Positions 1 through 49,734 of a stretch of 51,254 bases of DNA are shown one piece after another; positions within the stretch are counted from its first letter, which is position 1, and each line of letters begins with the position of its first letter. Made by a program: the position numbers and the translations under genes. Origin of the DNA: a virus; the IMG/VR virus record IMGVR_UViG_3300050821_004076, positions 1 to 51,254 of that record, one strand, 5' to 3'. The notes beneath the pieces were generated by a model that did not search any database, was not told the DNA's origin, and worked only from the letters and a program-made list of their open reading frames with translations.

Positions 1-828
1 ACGCGCGCGCAGTTCCTTGCGGGAGTCATGCCCCAGGTGTTTGGAGGTTCCGACAAGCACGTCGAGACCGCGGCAGGACAAGAACAAGCCCTCAACACAG
101 CCCTTGGAAGGCTGAAGCAGTACCTCAACCAGATGCAGATTGAGAATGCGGAGCGCGCCGTACTGGGCGTCCGCTGCTCAATCGACAACATGGACGAGGA
201 AGTGAAGATTGTCGAGGCCGGCGAGTCTGAGGGATCGTGGAAGACCATCCGGCTATTGAAAGCTGAGTTGAGCGGGAACTTCTTCGCGTATCCCGAGGAA
301 GACGCAGGATTCCCGGCCACCTATGCCGAGATTCAGACCCGATTGATGGCGCTGCTGGCTCAGAACCAGAAGATGCCCATTGTGGCCCAGATGCTTGCCG
401 ATCCGAAGATTCAACGGGTGCTGGCGCAGTATCTCTTGCCACCACAGATCAAGATCCCGCTGGACGCGCAACTCTCGAAGATTGAGACCGTTCTTCACAG
501 GTTGTCGCAGGACCCGAACGGGGCCATCCAGAAGCCCAACCCTGCAAACCCGCTTGCCCCGCCCATCACGGTCCCGTCGATCCTGCCAGAAAGCAACGTA
601 GACGACCCCGCGATATGCGCGGCGGAAGCAAAGGCTTGGTGTCTTTCGAATTGGGAGCAAGCCGAAACGAATCCTGTCGGGTATGGGAACGTGCTTGCGT
701 ATTTAACGGTATCGGGGCAACTCGCAAGGGAGCAGGCAGCCGCCGCAACTCTAGCTACTGCCGCACAAGCCCAGCAAGGGGCGAAATCAGGGGCAGGGAG
801 CGGCCAGCCCGGTCAGCCTGGAAGTTAA
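1..828 (+). CDS. Portal protein, C-terminal part (5' end outside window)
   Basis: The frame is open from base 1, so the first ATG at 28 is probably internal and the gene starts upstream of the window. The visible 275 residues are mostly helical and Gln/Ala-rich, with a Pro-rich stretch near residues 180-195 and a low-complexity Gly/Gln/Ser tail. This resembles the C-terminal half of podovirus-type portal proteins, which form the dodecameric DNA channel at the capsid vertex. Assignment rests mainly on position: a scaffold-like gene and the capsid gene follow directly in the same direction. The stop TAA (826-828) overlaps the stop of the opposing nuclease gene by two bases. No catalytic motif is expected. 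Another structural protein is possible. Confidence 0.55.
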   Translation, partial: TRAQFLAGVMPQVFGGSDKHVETAAGQEQALNTALGRLKQYLNQMQIENAERAVLGVRCSIDNMDEEVKIVEAGESEGSWKTIRLLKAELSGNFFAYPEEDAGFPATYAEIQTRLMALLAQNQKMPIVAQMLADPKIQRVLAQYLLPPQIKIPLDAQLSKIETVLHRLSQDPNGAIQKPNPANPLAPPITVPSILPESNVDDPAICAAEAKAWCLSNWEQAETNPVGYGNVLAYLTVSGQLAREQAAAATLATAAQAQQGAKSGAGSGQPGQPGS

Positions 829-1490
829 GCTGTCCTAGCAAACTCCCCGTGCAGGGCCTCCGCAGCCACGCGATACATCTCCCCGCAGATTGCCGGATCG
901 GGGTCATATCCGAGCACGCGGCATACCCCATTTGCTCTGATAGCGGCGCGGTACTGCTTCATAGTCCTATGCCACGACACGCCCTTAAAGCCGCTCTTAT
1001 TGTCCTTCCTCAGCCGCTGATTCCAGACCTGCTGGTTGTCGTTCGCGATTCTGAGGTTCCTTCGCCGGTTGTCCCACGTCCGCGATGGGTCCTTGTGGTC
1101 CCCTGTGCGTGGGTCGCCCTTCGCGAGACCAAGGATATAGCGGTGTAGTTTCCCAACGCGGGTGTTATAGCCGTAGAAACTTTGAACCGTCCAACTCCAA
1201 CTGACGGTCCAAACGATCTTGCGAACACGTTCATATTCATCGGCGTCCACAACGTGAAAGTGGCCTTTGGTAAGTTGGATCAACTTACAGTAGTCGCCGT
1301 CGATCTTGAAGGGCTGTGCGTCTGTGAAATCAGTCCGTACCTGCGTTGAATTATGACTGCGGATGCGGGATACTGGCTGTCCCCTCACGTGACCGAGATC
1401 GCGTCGAGTTCTCTTGGCTATCGGGGCAAGTTGTCCGCAGCCGCATTGGCACATGCCAACGGGTATGATCTGACTAGATGGGGATGTCAT
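825..1490 (-). CDS. HNH-AP2 homing-type endonuclease, copy 1
   Basis: Free-standing 221-residue homing-type nuclease, expected to cut DNA and spread its own gene. An N-terminal CQCGCG cysteine cluster lies at residues 14-19. The HNH core has H116 in LHRYI, DH at 131-132 and N141 in WDNRRRNLR. A C-terminal AP2-type DNA-binding domain covers about 163-218. It is collinear without gaps with copy 2 (9312-9977) and ends in the same GEFART motif. It is inserted antisense between the portal and scaffold genes, so it is a mobile intruder rather than a virion gene. The start at 1490 has an upstream GGAGGG. That site lies inside a hairpin-forming leader shared with the other two copies (1478-1548). Confidence 0.92.
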   Translation of the reverse strand: MTSPSSQIIPVGMCQCGCGQLAPIAKRTRRDLGHVRGQPVSRIRSHNSTQVRTDFTDAQPFKIDGDYCKLIQLTKGHFHVVDADEYERVRKIVWTVSWSWTVQSFYGYNTRVGKLHRYILGLAKGDPRTGDHKDPSRTWDNRRRNLRIANDNQQVWNQRLRKDNKSGFKGVSWHRTMKQYRAAIRANGVCRVLGYDPDPAICGEMYRVAAEALHGEFARTA

Positions 1491-1548
1491 TGATGGCCCT
1501 CCGAGGCCTGAGATTCAAAGGGAGTTTGCCGCTCCCGATGTCCCCATT
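1478..1548 (-). promoter_or_regulatory. Start-enclosing RNA hairpin of HNH-AP2 copy 1
   Basis: On the minus strand ATGGGGA (plus positions 1541-1547) can pair with TCCCCAT in codons 3-5 (plus positions 1478-1484). The loop of 56 bases contains the GGAGGG ribosome site and the ATG. An inner GGCC/GGCC pair brackets the ribosome site itself. The same layout is present at 48546-48618 and, with different bases, at 9259-9324. Inferred role: hold translation low, for example in read-through transcripts. Confidence 0.65.
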
Positions 1549-1572
1549 CTAAACCCAAAACAGCGAGTGGTG

Positions 1573-9252: not shown

Positions 9253-9258
9253 GCTAGA

Positions 9259-9324
9259 ATGGGGTTGTGGGCGTCTCACCGCCCGCACATCTCACGCTTA
9301 TCGGAGCGGAAATGCCAACCCCAT
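9259..9324 (+). promoter_or_regulatory. Start-enclosing RNA hairpin of HNH-AP2 copy 2
   Basis: ATGGGGTTG (9259-9267) is perfectly complementary to CAACCCCAT (9316-9324), which forms codons 2-5 of the nuclease. The 48-base loop holds a second GC-rich hairpin (GGGCG with CGCCC), the GGAG ribosome site and the ATG. The bases differ from copies 1 and 3 but pairing is kept, which supports a selected structure. Confidence 0.7.
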
Positions 9325-9977
9325 CTCTTGAAACTATACCCCTTGGACTCTGCCAGTGCGGATGCGGCGGACAAACCAAAATTTCGACACAAAACGATCC
9401 GAAGCGCGGTTACGTCAAAGGACGTCCTCAGCGTCTTTTGCCTGGCCACAATATGGTCCGGCCTGTAGTCGATTTCAGCGACGCCCTTCCATTCAAAATC
9501 GATGGCGACTATTGCAAGTTGATCCCTTTGACTAAAGGGCACTACCACGTAGTCGATGCATCGCGATACGAAGATGTGAAGAGATTCAGGTGGTTCATAA
9601 ACAAGGGCAACAGGAGCAAAAACGCTTATGCGAGGAACTCCCGTATCGGATTGATGCACCGATACTTGCTCGGCTTGACGAAAGACGATCCCCGCACGGG
9701 CGATCACCGTGATCCATCGCGCACCTGGGACAACCGTATTAGGAACCTACGACTTGCGGATGAGTCTGAGCAGAAATACAACATCGGGATTCGAAGCAAC
9801 AATACGACTGGATACAAAGGAGTCGTCTGGGAAAAGAGGCGCAAGCACTATTTTGCCCAGATCAGGACTAGAGGCAAAAACCGATATCTGGGACATGACG
9901 CCGATCCTGCGGTCTGTGCGGAAATGTATCGCGTGGCGGCAGAGAAAGACCACGGTGAATTTGCCAGAACTTCCTGA
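9312..9977 (+). CDS. HNH-AP2 homing-type endonuclease, copy 2
   Basis: A 221-residue nuclease, the same length as copy 1 and aligned to it without gaps. Shared elements are the N-terminal CQCGCG cluster, FKIDGDYCKL, LMHRYLLGL with H116, GDHRDPSRTWDN with DH at 131-132 and N141, and an AP2-type domain from about residue 165. The role is self-spreading DNA cleavage in a free-standing homing gene. It lies in the same direction as the virion genes, between the zinc-ribbon protein and the connector-like gene. The start at ATG 9312 is set by GGAG six bases upstream; a GTG at 9267 would lie inside the hairpin stem. Base composition is slightly richer in A than in the neighbours, as expected for a mobile gene. 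Confidence 0.92.
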   Translation: MPTPSLETIPLGLCQCGCGGQTKISTQNDPKRGYVKGRPQRLLPGHNMVRPVVDFSDALPFKIDGDYCKLIPLTKGHYHVVDASRYEDVKRFRWFINKGNRSKNAYARNSRIGLMHRYLLGLTKDDPRTGDHRDPSRTWDNRIRNLRLADESEQKYNIGIRSNNTTGYKGVVWEKRRKHYFAQIRTRGKNRYLGHDADPAVCAEMYRVAAEKDHGEFARTS

Positions 9978-40722: not shown

Positions 40723-42450
40723 CTACCGGCCCATCTGCGGAGCCGGGTTGTTGGCGGGATCATGAGCGATGCAGCATTCTGTACGAAGAAGAGTCATAGC
40801 GCAGGCTGCGGCAGCATTCAGGGACGAGCGGACGACCCTCAGCGGGTCTACGATACCAGCGCCGATCATGTTCTCCACAATCTCCCCGGTGGAAGCATCT
40901 AGGCCACACTGCTGCTCGCCGCCCTTCATGTCATCGAGTTCCTGAACCTGCTGGATAACGTCCTCCTCGATCCCAGCATTGGCAGCGATCTGCTGAAGAG
41001 GCTTGATCAGGCAGCCGAGCAGGAGGTTGTAGCCGGTGACGGCATTGGGTTCGAGTCCCTTGCGCAGGTCGACGTCACCATCGTCCGCAACGTCTCTGGC
41101 GAACACCAGTGCACTCCCGCCGCCCGGCACAACTCCCTCAGACACCGCCGCGCGCGTGGCGTGGATCGCGTCCTCCACCTGGAACTTGAGGCTCTTCACA
41201 TCGTCGGCAGACTTCCCACCGACCTTGATGACCGCTACGCCTCCCGTCAGAGCTGCAATCCGGTGTTTGGCTGCATCCCTCTCGTCCGGCCGCAGACGCT
41301 CGTCCTCGGCAATCGACTTGATCTGAGCGATGTAGGTGTCGAACTTCTTCTTGCGCGCGATTTGGGCAGCCTTGGTTTCCTCGTCGTCCGCAGGATCCTG
41401 CATGGTGATCAGCATCCTGCTCTGGTTCATCACGATCCTCTTGGCCATCCCGAAGCACTTCGAGGAGATGGTGTCGTAGTTCTTTCCCTGAAGCTGCTCC
41501 ACGCGCTGACCGTCGACCACCAGGGCAATGTCTTCAAGCAGGTCCTTGCGCGGCGCTCCCCACAGCGGGGCCTGTACGGCGGCCACTTGGAGATGGTCGT
41601 TGATCTTGTGGTGGACCAGTTGCGCCAGTGCCTCCGTGTCGAACTCGTTGGCGATGATGACGAACTTCAAGGCCTTACTGCGGGACTGTGCAAACTTCAC
41701 GGCAGCCTTGACCAGGTTCACAACCTCTGCCGCGGCGTTGAGTCTCCTGTCCAAGATCAGGACCGTGGCGTCCTCGAACGTGGTCCTGTTGCGCTCGGGC
41801 TCTGTGACGAAATAGCCGTGAGCGAGTCCTGACGTGATTTCAAGCCCCTCCACGAACTCGAGGCTGTGTTTGGTCGAGAAGCTGTCCCCGATCGTCAGCG
41901 CGCCATCCACGCCAACCTTCAGGACGGCGTCTGAGACCACCTGGGCGATTGCCTCATCCCCGTTGGCGCTGATGCGGGCAGCGTTGTAGGCCAACTCCGG
42001 AGTGCACTTCACCGACAGCGTTTCGAGAATCCCGCCCTGGTACTGCTTCGCCTTGGCGTCGTAGTCGCCCACGATGGCTGTCACGGCCCTTGCAATCCCG
42101 CGGCAGAGCTTCACAGGCTCGGCGCCGGCATCGATCGCCTTGCAGCCGGCCTCGAAGATCGTGTGAGCCAGCAGGGTTGCTGTGGTGGTCCCGTCGCCGC
42201 TCTCATCAACAGCCTGGCCGGCGCAGTTCTTCAGCAGGTCAGCTCCGATGGACTCGTAGGGGTCGGGCAGGTTCACTTCACGCGCCACCGTAACGCCATC
42301 TTTTGTGGAAAAGCACACCCCCATGTGGCGGAAGATCACCCAGCGGCCGGCGGGACCGAGGGTGACACGGACTGCATCGTTGAGTTGCGCGGCTCCTGCC
42401 AGAAGCGCTTTTCGTGCTTCGGCGCCGTACTTCGTCTGGATAATGCTCAT
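40723..42450 (-). CDS. groEL: Phage-encoded chaperonin GroEL
   Basis: A 575-residue group I chaperonin subunit, slightly longer than the 548 of E. coli. The ATP-site residues are kept: TKDG with D51, GDGTTTAT at 85-92 with D86, and VEDAIHATRAA containing the third Asp, followed by EGVVPGGGSAL. The apical region (about 190-370) is divergent, and the C-terminal Gly-Gly-Met tail is replaced by a Pro/Asn/Gln end. It is rich in cysteine. The protein forms a ring that folds proteins with GroES; a viral copy may be tuned to capsid or tail proteins. It follows the groES-like gene by 24 bases in one operon. The ribosome site is weak (GAAAGAGAGA). Confidence 0.95.
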   Translation of the reverse strand: MSIIQTKYGAEARKALLAGAAQLNDAVRVTLGPAGRWVIFRHMGVCFSTKDGVTVAREVNLPDPYESIGADLLKNCAGQAVDESGDGTTTATLLAHTIFEAGCKAIDAGAEPVKLCRGIARAVTAIVGDYDAKAKQYQGGILETLSVKCTPELAYNAARISANGDEAIAQVVSDAVLKVGVDGALTIGDSFSTKHSLEFVEGLEITSGLAHGYFVTEPERNRTTFEDATVLILDRRLNAAAEVVNLVKAAVKFAQSRSKALKFVIIANEFDTEALAQLVHHKINDHLQVAAVQAPLWGAPRKDLLEDIALVVDGQRVEQLQGKNYDTISSKCFGMAKRIVMNQSRMLITMQDPADDEETKAAQIARKKKFDTYIAQIKSIAEDERLRPDERDAAKHRIAALTGGVAVIKVGGKSADDVKSLKFQVEDAIHATRAAVSEGVVPGGGSALVFARDVADDGDVDLRKGLEPNAVTGYNLLLGCLIKPLQQIAANAGIEEDVIQQVQELDDMKGGEQQCGLDASTGEIVENMIGAGIVDPLRVVRSSLNAAAACAMTLLRTECCIAHDPANNPAPQMGR

Positions 42451-48018: not shown

Positions 48019-48558
48019 TTAAGGACGCTTAAATCCAAGACAGGCGAAGCGCCCGTGGTATTTCAGCGCAGCGGGAACGTAAAGCTCGCGCCAAGCAGCC
48101 TCGGCGCTATTGCGATATCCAAGTCGGATTTGGCGGTAATTGACTTTGATGTTAGCCACGTAGGCATTCTTGGCGACATCGAAAGAGACGCCCTTGTAGC
48201 CAGAGGTATTGTTGCGCGACGTCGCCCTATTAGAACAATTCTCGCGGTGAGTGGCGATCCGCAGATTTTGGACTCCATTAACAAACTTGCGATTGTCTAG
48301 CGTGATGTGAAGTGCGTGATCCACATGCCGCTTATCTCTGTGCTTTAAGCCCATAATTTCCCGGTGCATTCTTATCGTGCGGTCGGTCCCGTCGGCTTGA
48401 CGTTCGGTACGCGCCGCGTAGTAGGTGCGACCGTGACGGCTCCATTTGGCGTACCACTTGAAGGCGGAAAGCCGCTCAAAGTCATCTTCATCCACGAGCG
48501 CTACTTGACCATGGTTCAGAGCTATTTCGCGGTAAGATGGGGTCAATGGGGATGTCAT
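48019..48558 (-). CDS. HNH-AP2 homing-type endonuclease, copy 3
   Basis: A 179-residue relative of copies 1 and 2 without the CQCGCG start. The HNH core is MHREIMG, VDHALHITLDNR and, after a four-residue insert, VQNLRIATHREN. The AP2-type domain (about 117-170) begins NTSGYKGVSF and includes the WRELYVPAALKYHG segment. It is more distant from the other two, so it is an older or separately acquired copy. Start ATG 48558 sits in the shared hairpin leader behind GGAGGG; a longer in-frame start would begin before the hairpin. It is inserted between two replication genes. Confidence 0.88.
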   Translation of the reverse strand: MTSPLTPSYREIALNHGQVALVDEDDFERLSAFKWYAKWSRHGRTYYAARTERQADGTDRTIRMHREIMGLKHRDKRHVDHALHITLDNRKFVNGVQNLRIATHRENCSNRATSRNNTSGYKGVSFDVAKNAYVANIKVNYRQIRLGYRNSAEAAWRELYVPAALKYHGRFACLGFKRP

Positions 48559-48618
48559 CTGAAAGGCCCTCCACGGCCTGATGATTAAACGGCGTCGCAA
48601 GCGCCTGATGTCCCCATT
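48546..48618 (-). promoter_or_regulatory. Start-enclosing RNA hairpin of HNH-AP2 copy 3
   Basis: AATGGGGA on the - strand (plus 48611-48618) pairs with TCCCCATT (plus 48545-48552). The enclosed loop has GGCC-GTGGAG-GGCC around the ribosome site and the ATG. The spacing is nearly the same as in copy 1. Confidence 0.65.
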
Positions 48619-48626
48619 ATATCTCT

Positions 48627-49160
48627 TCAAAAATCGTCCTCTTCTGTTGGCGGTGCCTGTGGTTTTGCCTTGGCCTGCGCCATTAACATCTGCACCCTGC
48701 GCGCGCCGGCTGCAAGTTTATTCGCTTTCTCAAGGCGGGAGAGAATATCCGTCCTCGCAAGCGGATGCATCGTCTCAATCCGCTCGAGGAAGTCAAGGAA
48801 CTCTACACCGATCATCGATCCTTTTCGGTCGTTGCATTGACGGCAGGGATAGTCGATGTTCGTGAGGTTGGAGGTCCCGCCACGACTCAGCGGAACCGAG
48901 TGGTCGACGGCAATCTCCCCCAGGGTGTACCAGCGTTTGCAGAATCGGCACTGTATGGCGCCATCCTCGACGCCTCCCATGACGTTCCTGATGTCGGTGC
49001 GGAACTCTTCGAGGGAGAAGGTGAGCGCTGGCAGCTTCTTCTTCTTCAGCCGGTCCACCATGCCCTGATAGCGGCTGCGGGTGAGGTCGTTAAAGGTGGT
49101 CCTGCTGGCCTGGGCGAATAGGACACCGGCTCCGACGACTTGAGGCTTGAAGTTAGCCAT
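48627..49160 (-). CDS. HNH endonuclease (177 aa)
   Basis: A classic HNH domain in the middle: CRFC (71-74), VDHSVPLSRGGTSNLTN with D86 and H87, then CRQC (106-109) and NDRKG. The N-terminal 65 residues are basic and helical, and the C-terminus is charged and helical. Start ATG 49160 overlaps the previous gene by eight bases and has GGAG upstream; a longer in-frame start would lie within that gene. Such a protein may act in DNA processing, recombination or packaging. The motif is complete, so it should be active. Confidence 0.85.
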   Translation of the reverse strand: MANFKPQVVGAGVLFAQASRTTFNDLTRSRYQGMVDRLKKKKLPALTFSLEEFRTDIRNVMGGVEDGAIQCRFCKRWYTLGEIAVDHSVPLSRGGTSNLTNIDYPCRQCNDRKGSMIGVEFLDFLERIETMHPLARTDILSRLEKANKLAAGARRVQMLMAQAKAKPQAPPTEEDDF

Positions 49161-49734
49161 CGTCTCTGCACTCCTCCCGCTCCTTGCACTTGCAGCGCTC
49201 GTCCGGAGTGGAGTACCAGCCAGAGGCGTCGCACCACCAGCAATGCTGGCAGAGGTCCTCCCCGGGCAGGTGATCACGGCATTCAGAACACCACACTGCT
49301 TCATCTTCCCGCGCGTTCTGCCGCATCCAGTCGAACAGGTCGGAGAAATCCTGCATGCTGTCGAATGCCTTCGGCAGGTCGGAGAGACGTCGCGTGCGGT
49401 TCCTGCGTCGGACTGCTTTAGTGGCTTTGCCTCTGTACGGAGGCTTGTCTTTTATGCTTATCAGCGTGCAGGGAGCTTCTTTGATGTCAACTTGACCGCT
49501 GGCGAAGTAAGGTCCACTGACTTCTACTGTTCGTCCCCCGCTGCTGCTGTTGTGGTAAATGTAGCCGCAAAGATACTTGCTCCACTCCACGTCGTACCCA
49601 TCGAAGCCTCGATAAGTCTTTCCATCGTGAGCAGATTCGTGCTCGGTGAAGACCCAAAGCGAGAAGAGCTTCTTTCTACCACCCGAATCGACGTGGAACT
49701 CACCGACTACGCCAACCGTGCGCTCGCCTCTCAT
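49153..49734 (-). CDS. Protein with C-terminal cysteine cluster (193 aa)
   Basis: ATG 49734 overlaps the upstream stop as TGATG (a GTG at 49737 is possible). Residues 1-100 form a beta-rich domain. The middle is Arg-rich (RRRNRTRR). The last 55 residues hold CSEC, CQHCWWC and CKCKEREEC, enough for two zinc sites. The arrangement suggests a nucleic-acid-binding protein. The family is not recognised. It sits in a tight run with ATGA-type overlaps on both sides. Confidence 0.6.
   Translation of the reverse strand: MRGERTVGVVGEFHVDSGGRKKLFSLWVFTEHESAHDGKTYRGFDGYDVEWSKYLCGYIYHNSSSGGRTVEVSGPYFASGQVDIKEAPCTLISIKDKPPYRGKATKAVRRRNRTRRLSDLPKAFDSMQDFSDLFDWMRQNAREDEAVWCSECRDHLPGEDLCQHCWWCDASGWYSTPDERCKCKEREECRDDG

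Follow-up and report, generated by a model that had tools for sequence, protein, structure and literature searches.

A covarying leader RNA shared by mutually unrelated nuclease genes of uncultured phages

Three HNH-AP2 family genes in the virus record IMGVR_UViG_3300050821_004076 begin inside an inverted repeat, and the question raised by this locus is what an RNA folded around these start codons would do for a nuclease gene. The whole record, a stretch of 51,254 bp, was analysed and is referred to here as the window. When its first 25 kb were compared with isolate phages, no close relatives were found; a GroEL-like chaperonin is encoded at 40726-42450 on the minus strand (PHROG 5725, E 1.8e-108). 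All three genes match PHROG HNH endonucleases and, judged from sequence, are probably nucleases of the homing type. Each is preceded by a leader of about 80 nt with the same order of parts: a TANAAT box, the 5' arm of an outer stem (P1), a hairpin (P2), a second hairpin (P3) with the Shine-Dalgarno motif GGAG in or beside its loop, the ATG, and the 3' arm of P1 within codons 2-5. The features are as follows.

825-1490, minus strand: copy 1, HNH-AP2 family endonuclease gene, 221 aa, ATG at 1490 (PHROG 99 HNH endonuclease, E 1.7e-26)
1546-1551, minus strand: copy 1 -10 box TAGAAT, putative 5' end of the cassette (sequence; TANAAT in the same place in the 44 logo leaders)
1539-1545, minus strand: copy 1 P1 5' arm, GGGGA paired and CA mismatched, also the putative promoter discriminator (predicted +1 at 1539)
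1520-1536, minus strand: copy 1 P2 hairpin GGGAG-cggcaaa-CTCCC (folding and covariation of P2 pairs)
1495-1508, minus strand: copy 1 P3 hairpin GGCC-tcggag-GGCC, Shine-Dalgarno GGAG in the loop at 1499-1502 (folding and covariation)
1480-1484, minus strand: copy 1 P1 3' arm TCCCC, codons 3-4 (sequence, model R2)
9312-9977, plus strand: copy 2, HNH-AP2 family endonuclease gene, 221 aa, ATG at 9312 (PHROG 99, E 7.3e-27)
9255-9260, plus strand: copy 2 -10 box TAGAAT, 2 nt behind the upstream stop codon (sequence, logo)
9261-9267, plus strand: copy 2 P1 5' arm GGGGTTG (predicted +1 at 9267; folding, model R2)
9266-9287, plus strand: copy 2 P2 hairpin TGTGGGCG-tctcac-CGCCCGCA, its outer two pairs competing with P1 (folding)
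9295-9308, plus strand: copy 2 P3 hairpin CGCT-tatcgg-AGCG, Shine-Dalgarno GGAG on the 3' side (folding)
9316-9322, plus strand: copy 2 P1 3' arm CAACCCC, codons 2-4 (sequence, folding, model R2)
48019-48558, minus strand: copy 3, HNH-AP2 family endonuclease gene, 179 aa, ATG at 48558 (PHROG HNH endonuclease match)
48616-48621, minus strand: copy 3 -10 box TATAAT, 5 nt behind the stop of the upstream HNH gene (sequence, logo)
48609-48615, minus strand: copy 3 P1 5' arm, GGGGA paired and CA mismatched (predicted +1 at 48609)
48591-48605, minus strand: copy 3 P2 hairpin GGCG-cttgcga-CGCC (covariation)
48564-48579, minus strand: copy 3 P3 hairpin AGGCC-gtggag-GGCCT, Shine-Dalgarno GGAG in the loop (covariation)
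48548-48552, minus strand: copy 3 P1 3' arm TCCCC, codons 3-4 (sequence, model R2)
48630-49304, minus strand: second HNH endonuclease gene upstream of copy 3 and on the same strand, its stop codon 5 nt ahead of the -10 box of copy 3 (PHROG matches, not AP2-type)

A preliminary description of the window had placed inverted repeats around the start at 1478-1548, 9259-9324 and 48545-48618, with the pairs GGGGA/TCCCC in copies 1 and 3 and GGGGTTG/CAACCCC in copy 2, and all of these are present as described. P2 in the three copies, the TANAAT box 5' of P1 and the carriers outside the HNH-AP2 family are additional to it. The inner GGCC hairpin that it reported for copies 1 and 3 exists, but copy 2 has an equivalent P3 (CGCT/AGCG), too. 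Upon single-sequence folding, P1 is present in copies 1, 2 and 3 (z = -1.6, -3.6 and -2.5, respectively). The minimum-energy fold of copy 2 is exactly the three-way junction and copy 1 folds alike; copy 3 also forms P1, although its inner part folds slightly better in another way. The arms of copies 1 and 3, GGGGACATC/GACATCCCC, have two A.C mismatches after the fifth pair. Since these two copies share the same P1, the window contains only one covariation event, and the joint base change claimed for it is weak evidence when taken alone. Copy 3 gave an early hint that the start residues go with the leader rather than with the protein: its product is without the N-terminal CxCGCG domain seen in copies 1 and 2 and still begins with M-T-S-P.

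Homologous leaders were sought in several ways. An alignment of the three window proteins retrieved 80 HNH-AP2 loci irrespective of their leaders, where the copy 1 protein alone as a query had found no homologues. About 9 of these 80 loci carry the leader, including L004 and L006, the latter recognized by eye, and the leader as a general HNH-AP2 trait was rejected on this count. Further leaders were found, among the matches listed, by one DNA pattern scan and three scans in which the paired positions were left free. At least about 50 homologous leaders were thus obtained, all in uncultured phage contigs. About half of the distinct matches to the first pattern were chance or other genes, such as the MPSPKTIDTLKWAKK group, without TANAAT and P2/P3, and two genome_contigs matches were likewise rejected as chance. 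The exact pattern ATGGGGACATC...ATGACATCCCCAT had no match outside the window, a blastn comparison of two leaders with 50,697 isolate phage records gave none, and the HNH gene of a Tunturiibacter phage showed no leader by eye. Rfam returned no match at the gathering threshold for the window, nor any at E up to 1 for L134, L171 and L004.

A model built with MAFFT and RNAalifold (R1) recovered only P1, because P2 and P3 were misaligned, and was dropped. A covariance model with the structure supplied (R2) was then made from 16 type-A leaders, namely copy 2 and 15 from other phages. Model R2 found copies 1 and 3, on which it had not been trained, at 47.6 bits (E 1.5e-10) and 28.3 bits (E 5.6e-5), respectively, and on whole virus records it found extra copies with no pattern selection involved. 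Model R3 added L348, which precedes a GIY-YIG-like protein (by motif), and L349, which precedes a CWEW-type HNH protein and has the P1 arms GAAGGAGTC/GACCCCTTC; with it, the leader was seen in 25 of 50 records searched, the rest having mostly HNH-AP2 genes without a leader. Genomes may hold multiple copies, three in the window and two each in G003, G004, G021, G023 and G028, sometimes before different nuclease families. P1 arms obtained without a P1 pattern are GGGTTTGTCA/TGACAAACCC in L004 and GGGGTGTC/GACACCCC in L006 and, from pattern-free searching, AGGGTTGTC/GACAACCCT (L340), TGAGGGTGTC/GGCACCCTCA (L342) and TGGGGTGTCA/TGACACCCCA (L343). In L344, with arms GAGGCCAT/ATGGCCCC, GGCCAT pairs with the AUG itself, leaving one A.C mismatch.

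The alignment of 49 leaders (48 distinct) was fitted to the model, which favours structure; among the 48 distinct leaders, 96.1% of pair cells were paired, compared with 75.5% after shuffling. Sliding the partner on the same alignment left 41-58% paired. The covariation score was 0.478, against 0.108 for shuffled alignments and 0.027-0.053 with the partner slid, and none of 500 shuffles reached the observed value on any of five measures. Changes on both sides were found in 15/16 pairs (P1 6/7, P2 5/5, P3 4/4). Before five copies from the record-wide search were added the figures were similar, with 11/16 pairs overall and 2/7 in P1. Pairing was highest in P2 (98.7%), followed by P3 (96.6%) and P1 (94.0%). 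When the arms of 16 P1 variants, many of them found without fixing P1, were exchanged, pairing fell from 96% with their own arms to 70%. The homologue alignment thus strongly supports a covarying RNA structure around the start site, and the joint change of bases proposed from the window is confirmed on the homologues.

Departures from pairing in P1 were nearly all A.C, with 18 such cells and no G.U; one U.G was found later, in L342. Examples are L014, L016, L127, L147, L230 and window copies 1 and 3. This excess, the reverse of what an RNA helix usually tolerates, arises in part because the search patterns fixed the 3' arm, which is also coding. It may also reflect promoter constraint on the 5' arm or a second role of the 3' arm. 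An antisense RNA, a reading prompted by the A.C exceptions, was rejected in view of sense-strand wobbles in P2 and of folding z-scores that do not separate the strands. Translation of AATGGGG as an upstream ORF was discarded, its frame differing between copies 1 and 2.

The genes behind the leader belong to at least four unrelated nuclease families, with Pfam matches to AP2+HNH_3, Endonuclease_7, HNH_3, PDDEXK_5 and T5orf172/MUG113 (a GIY-YIG-like domain). Several zinc-rich proteins fit no family, and L094 is without a Pfam match. To restrict the leader to HNH-AP2 genes, as the preliminary description did, is therefore too narrow, and, with about 9 of 80 homologues as carriers, also too broad; that all three window copies have it stands. 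These families have in common only the leader and a short N-terminus dictated by the RNA. The residues after Met vary with P1 (TTP, PTP, STP, TSP, ASP, TNP, TLP, TPQ, APS, APP), and with the variant P1 arms the protein starts change accordingly (MTNP, MTTL, MAPS, MTPQ and MAPP). Leaders up to 86% identical stand before proteins of merely background similarity, and runs of 24-41 identical leader nucleotides recur in front of different families: 37 nt are shared by L143 (GIY-YIG-like) and L139 (zinc protein), and 41 nt by L145 (Endonuclease VII) and L105 (HNH-AP2). HNH, GIY-YIG and PD-(D/E)XK are established homing families, to which EndoVII has been added (PMC6083498). An intact leader in L118 (750-824, minus strand) precedes a 216-aa protein with no Pfam match and a VAHPPCERWGRYW motif, which is either a nuclease not recognised as such or another kind of protein using the leader. 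Intact leaders in L089, L116, L167 and L169 precede short or truncated ORFs of 25-56 aa, as expected of decaying homing genes.

A sequence logo was drawn from 44 unique leaders, gathered mostly with an AATG-containing pattern and a TA filter, so that the box is partly selected: TANAAT has T in 44/44, A in 44/44, a mixed third position (T 22, G 15, C 4, A 3), then A in 43/44, A in 44/44 and T in 44/44. In the protein-derived set, which was unselected for the box, 7 of 8 leaders have TANAAT or one mismatch; L006 does not. An extended -10 is weakly present (a purine occupies -16 in 39/44 leaders and G occupies -14 in 24/44), and the logo of 44 leaders showed no -35 element. The box resembles the -10 element of sigma70 promoters and is read as a putative promoter by this consensus. 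If the last T of the box is taken as -7, transcription is predicted to begin at position 13, a purine in 43/44 leaders and preceded by a pyrimidine in 43/44. The -10 box lies exactly one discriminator length before the boundary of P1 and P2, and the P1 5' arm GGGGTT would be the discriminator, absent from the transcript. L030 and L031 (HNH-AP2 genes, about 1395-1445) have TATAAT, AAAAAA, P2 at position 13, P3 and ATG, with the hairpin sequence AATCTCA-ttcaagg-TGAGATT given for P2 and P3, and no P1. They appear to be a natural P1-less form of the leader, and their arrangement agrees with transcription beginning on the first nucleotide of P2. L017 resembles them. A different leader, also starting with TATAAT, precedes the HNH-AP2 genes of L022 (1400-1470) and L023 (1395-1470); its outer stem TTGCGGC/GCCGCAA (or TGCGGC/GCCGCA) closes two hairpins, all upstream of the Shine-Dalgarno, and it may represent a second family of leader RNA for nucleases.

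Comparison with related contigs that have an empty site revealed insertion at gene borders for two cassettes homologous to those of the window, L132 (compared with L147 and L171) and L171 (compared with L016, L153 and L170); such empty alleles, which mark a free-standing cassette, are thus shown for these two homologues. In L171, a native ATGA stop-start overlap has become TAG followed directly by TATAAT on the 5' side and AAATGA on the 3' side. The L132 unit is flanked by the upstream stop and Shine-Dalgarno and by the downstream ATG. At both sites the comparison of sequences with and without the cassette shows TANAAT as the 5' edge of the inserted unit. By a simple ORF heuristic, about 20 of 44 leaders are on the strand of the upstream gene and about 18 of 44 are antisense to it; in the window copies 2 and 3 are sense and copy 1 is antisense. 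Most same-strand leaders lie -5 to +12 nt from the upstream stop codon, and because the cassette abuts this stop, any RNA reading through has to traverse the leader.

The energy needed to open a 26-nt stretch surrounding the start codon was predicted for naked RNA at 37 C on the same selection, mainly AATG-pattern leaders filtered for TA at the box, with 30 nt of upstream sequence included in the read-through RNA. The mean cost was 13.1 kcal/mol for read-through RNA, 7.8 if the RNA began at position 13 and 8.5 with a complemented P1 5' arm, and read-through RNA was predicted to cost more than the cassette's own transcript in 44/44 leaders. Opening energy and covariation both point to RNA structure over the Shine-Dalgarno and start codon.

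We propose, with a probability of roughly 0.6, that the element acts in cis as a leader RNA, constitutes the 5' end of a mobile nuclease cassette and combines its own promoter with a lock on read-through RNA. A minimal promoter (TANAAT) would be followed by a three-way junction of P1, P2 and P3, with the Shine-Dalgarno in the P3 loop. In RNA arriving from upstream, P1 would close over the Shine-Dalgarno, AUG and first codons and keep nuclease translation low. A transcript initiated from the cassette's own -10 box would begin at about position 13, without the P1 5' arm, and would be translatable; P2 would then be a 5'-terminal hairpin that may protect the RNA. The transcription start, the repression with its release and the stabilisation by a terminal P2 are what we infer. 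The 'on' state of the own transcript is only relative, since P3 still holds the Shine-Dalgarno. In antisense cassettes, the promoter would be essential, and only long-range or antisense transcription would bring P1 into play. The preliminary description suggested an RNA switch of the I-TevI kind that silences read-through RNA. The position of the -10 box, the predicted loss of occlusion in 44/44 leaders and the many cassettes behind a same-strand stop are consistent with such a switch; ordinary read-through is not expected for the large share of cassettes, copy 1 included, that are antisense to the upstream gene, where the lock would have less to do. This counts against read-through silencing, as the existence of L030, L031 and L017 without P1 counts against a P1 lock.

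Other explanations would account for parts of these data. A chance inverted repeat without function, although compatible with the modest single-sequence z-scores in the window (-1.6 to -3.6), is refuted by the 500 shuffles and by a model that finds copies 1 and 3 without having been trained on them, and carries practically no weight. The element could instead act as DNA, as an inverted repeat or recombination hinge for homing or nuclease swapping, with RNA pairing incidental. That the inserted unit begins with TANAAT at empty sites, that identical 24-41 nt stretches precede unrelated nucleases and that the A.C exceptions in P1 would be G.U on the other strand agree with a DNA element, but the covariation requires base pairing within a strand, nearly all copies keep one register relative to the Shine-Dalgarno, AUG and -10 box, and P2 and P3 are short-loop hairpins, P3 being centred on the Shine-Dalgarno. 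We regard this reading as very improbable.

A different role in RNA would be a leader for mRNA stability and efficient initiation in any transcript, in which P2 protects the 5' end, P3 presents the Shine-Dalgarno and P1 merely fine-tunes. P2 does start at the predicted +1, also in the P1-less L030 and L031, and P2 and P3 are better paired than P1. This account is nevertheless improbable: compensatory changes that alter the first residues of the protein have kept P1, which argues for selection on it, and in every leader the start site is predicted to be costlier to open with P1 than without it. We also consider it rather unlikely that the three-way junction binds a trans-acting factor (an RNA-binding protein of host or phage, a ribosomal protein, a small RNA or a metabolite) that holds or opens P1, with the promoter being an ordinary start. 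Nuclease autoregulation is unlikely, because the nucleases are unrelated, and a common factor would account for one leader across many families. Together, P1, P2 and P3, the constant loop that bears the Shine-Dalgarno and the P2-P3 linker, which is conserved in part (many leaders have YUCA ahead of P3), resemble a folded domain more than a simple blocking hairpin; loops and P2 sequence vary freely, however, no conserved pocket was seen, and no Rfam family matched.

Returning to the cis-acting leader, we put at about even odds the wider proposal that these sequences form one mobile family of leader RNA, an expression-control module shared by at least five unrelated kinds of nuclease, which is swapped by recombination, dictates N-termini and makes insertion safe for expression through its promoter and lock. 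Free-standing homing genes must enter foreign operons harmlessly and yet be expressed, and a portable homologous element before nucleases of different folds suggests that regulation moves about as an independent module. The model predicts that N-terminal residues are set by RNA pairing and not by the protein. The leader can also serve as a search model for homing cassettes in uncultured phages, and it comes with many natural re-paired variants.

HEARO/IscB omega RNA is a structured RNA that adjoins an HNH nuclease gene and is a guide bound by the nuclease. In contrast, the nucleases described here are mutually unrelated, the RNA contains the start codon and it has no Rfam match. At the level of the protein family, several leader-bearing genes are Endonuclease_7 and so resemble the F-CphI/Endonuclease VII homing family (PMC6083498). 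The open-licence literature searched gave no description of a shared leader of this kind, which is not proof of novelty; the only precedents there are from T4 and Aeh1. In T4 I-TevI, I-TevII, I-TevIII and segB and in Aeh1 mobE, hairpins at the ribosome site form only in upstream transcripts, and proximal promoters lie inside or adjoin the hairpins (PMC2988022). The T4 cases have separate hairpins and late promoters, predicted or mapped, with some effects tested (PMC2988022). Like the I-TevI type, the present leaders combine a homing endonuclease gene, RNA over the ribosome site and a putative promoter that would trim the structure. Unlike it, they consist of a single three-way junction, homologous across unrelated nucleases and bearing a sigma70-like -10 box, their 3' arm lies inside the coding region and the leader is the 5' end of the inserted unit. 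Regulation in T4 has been described gene by gene, whereas here a single element is shared.
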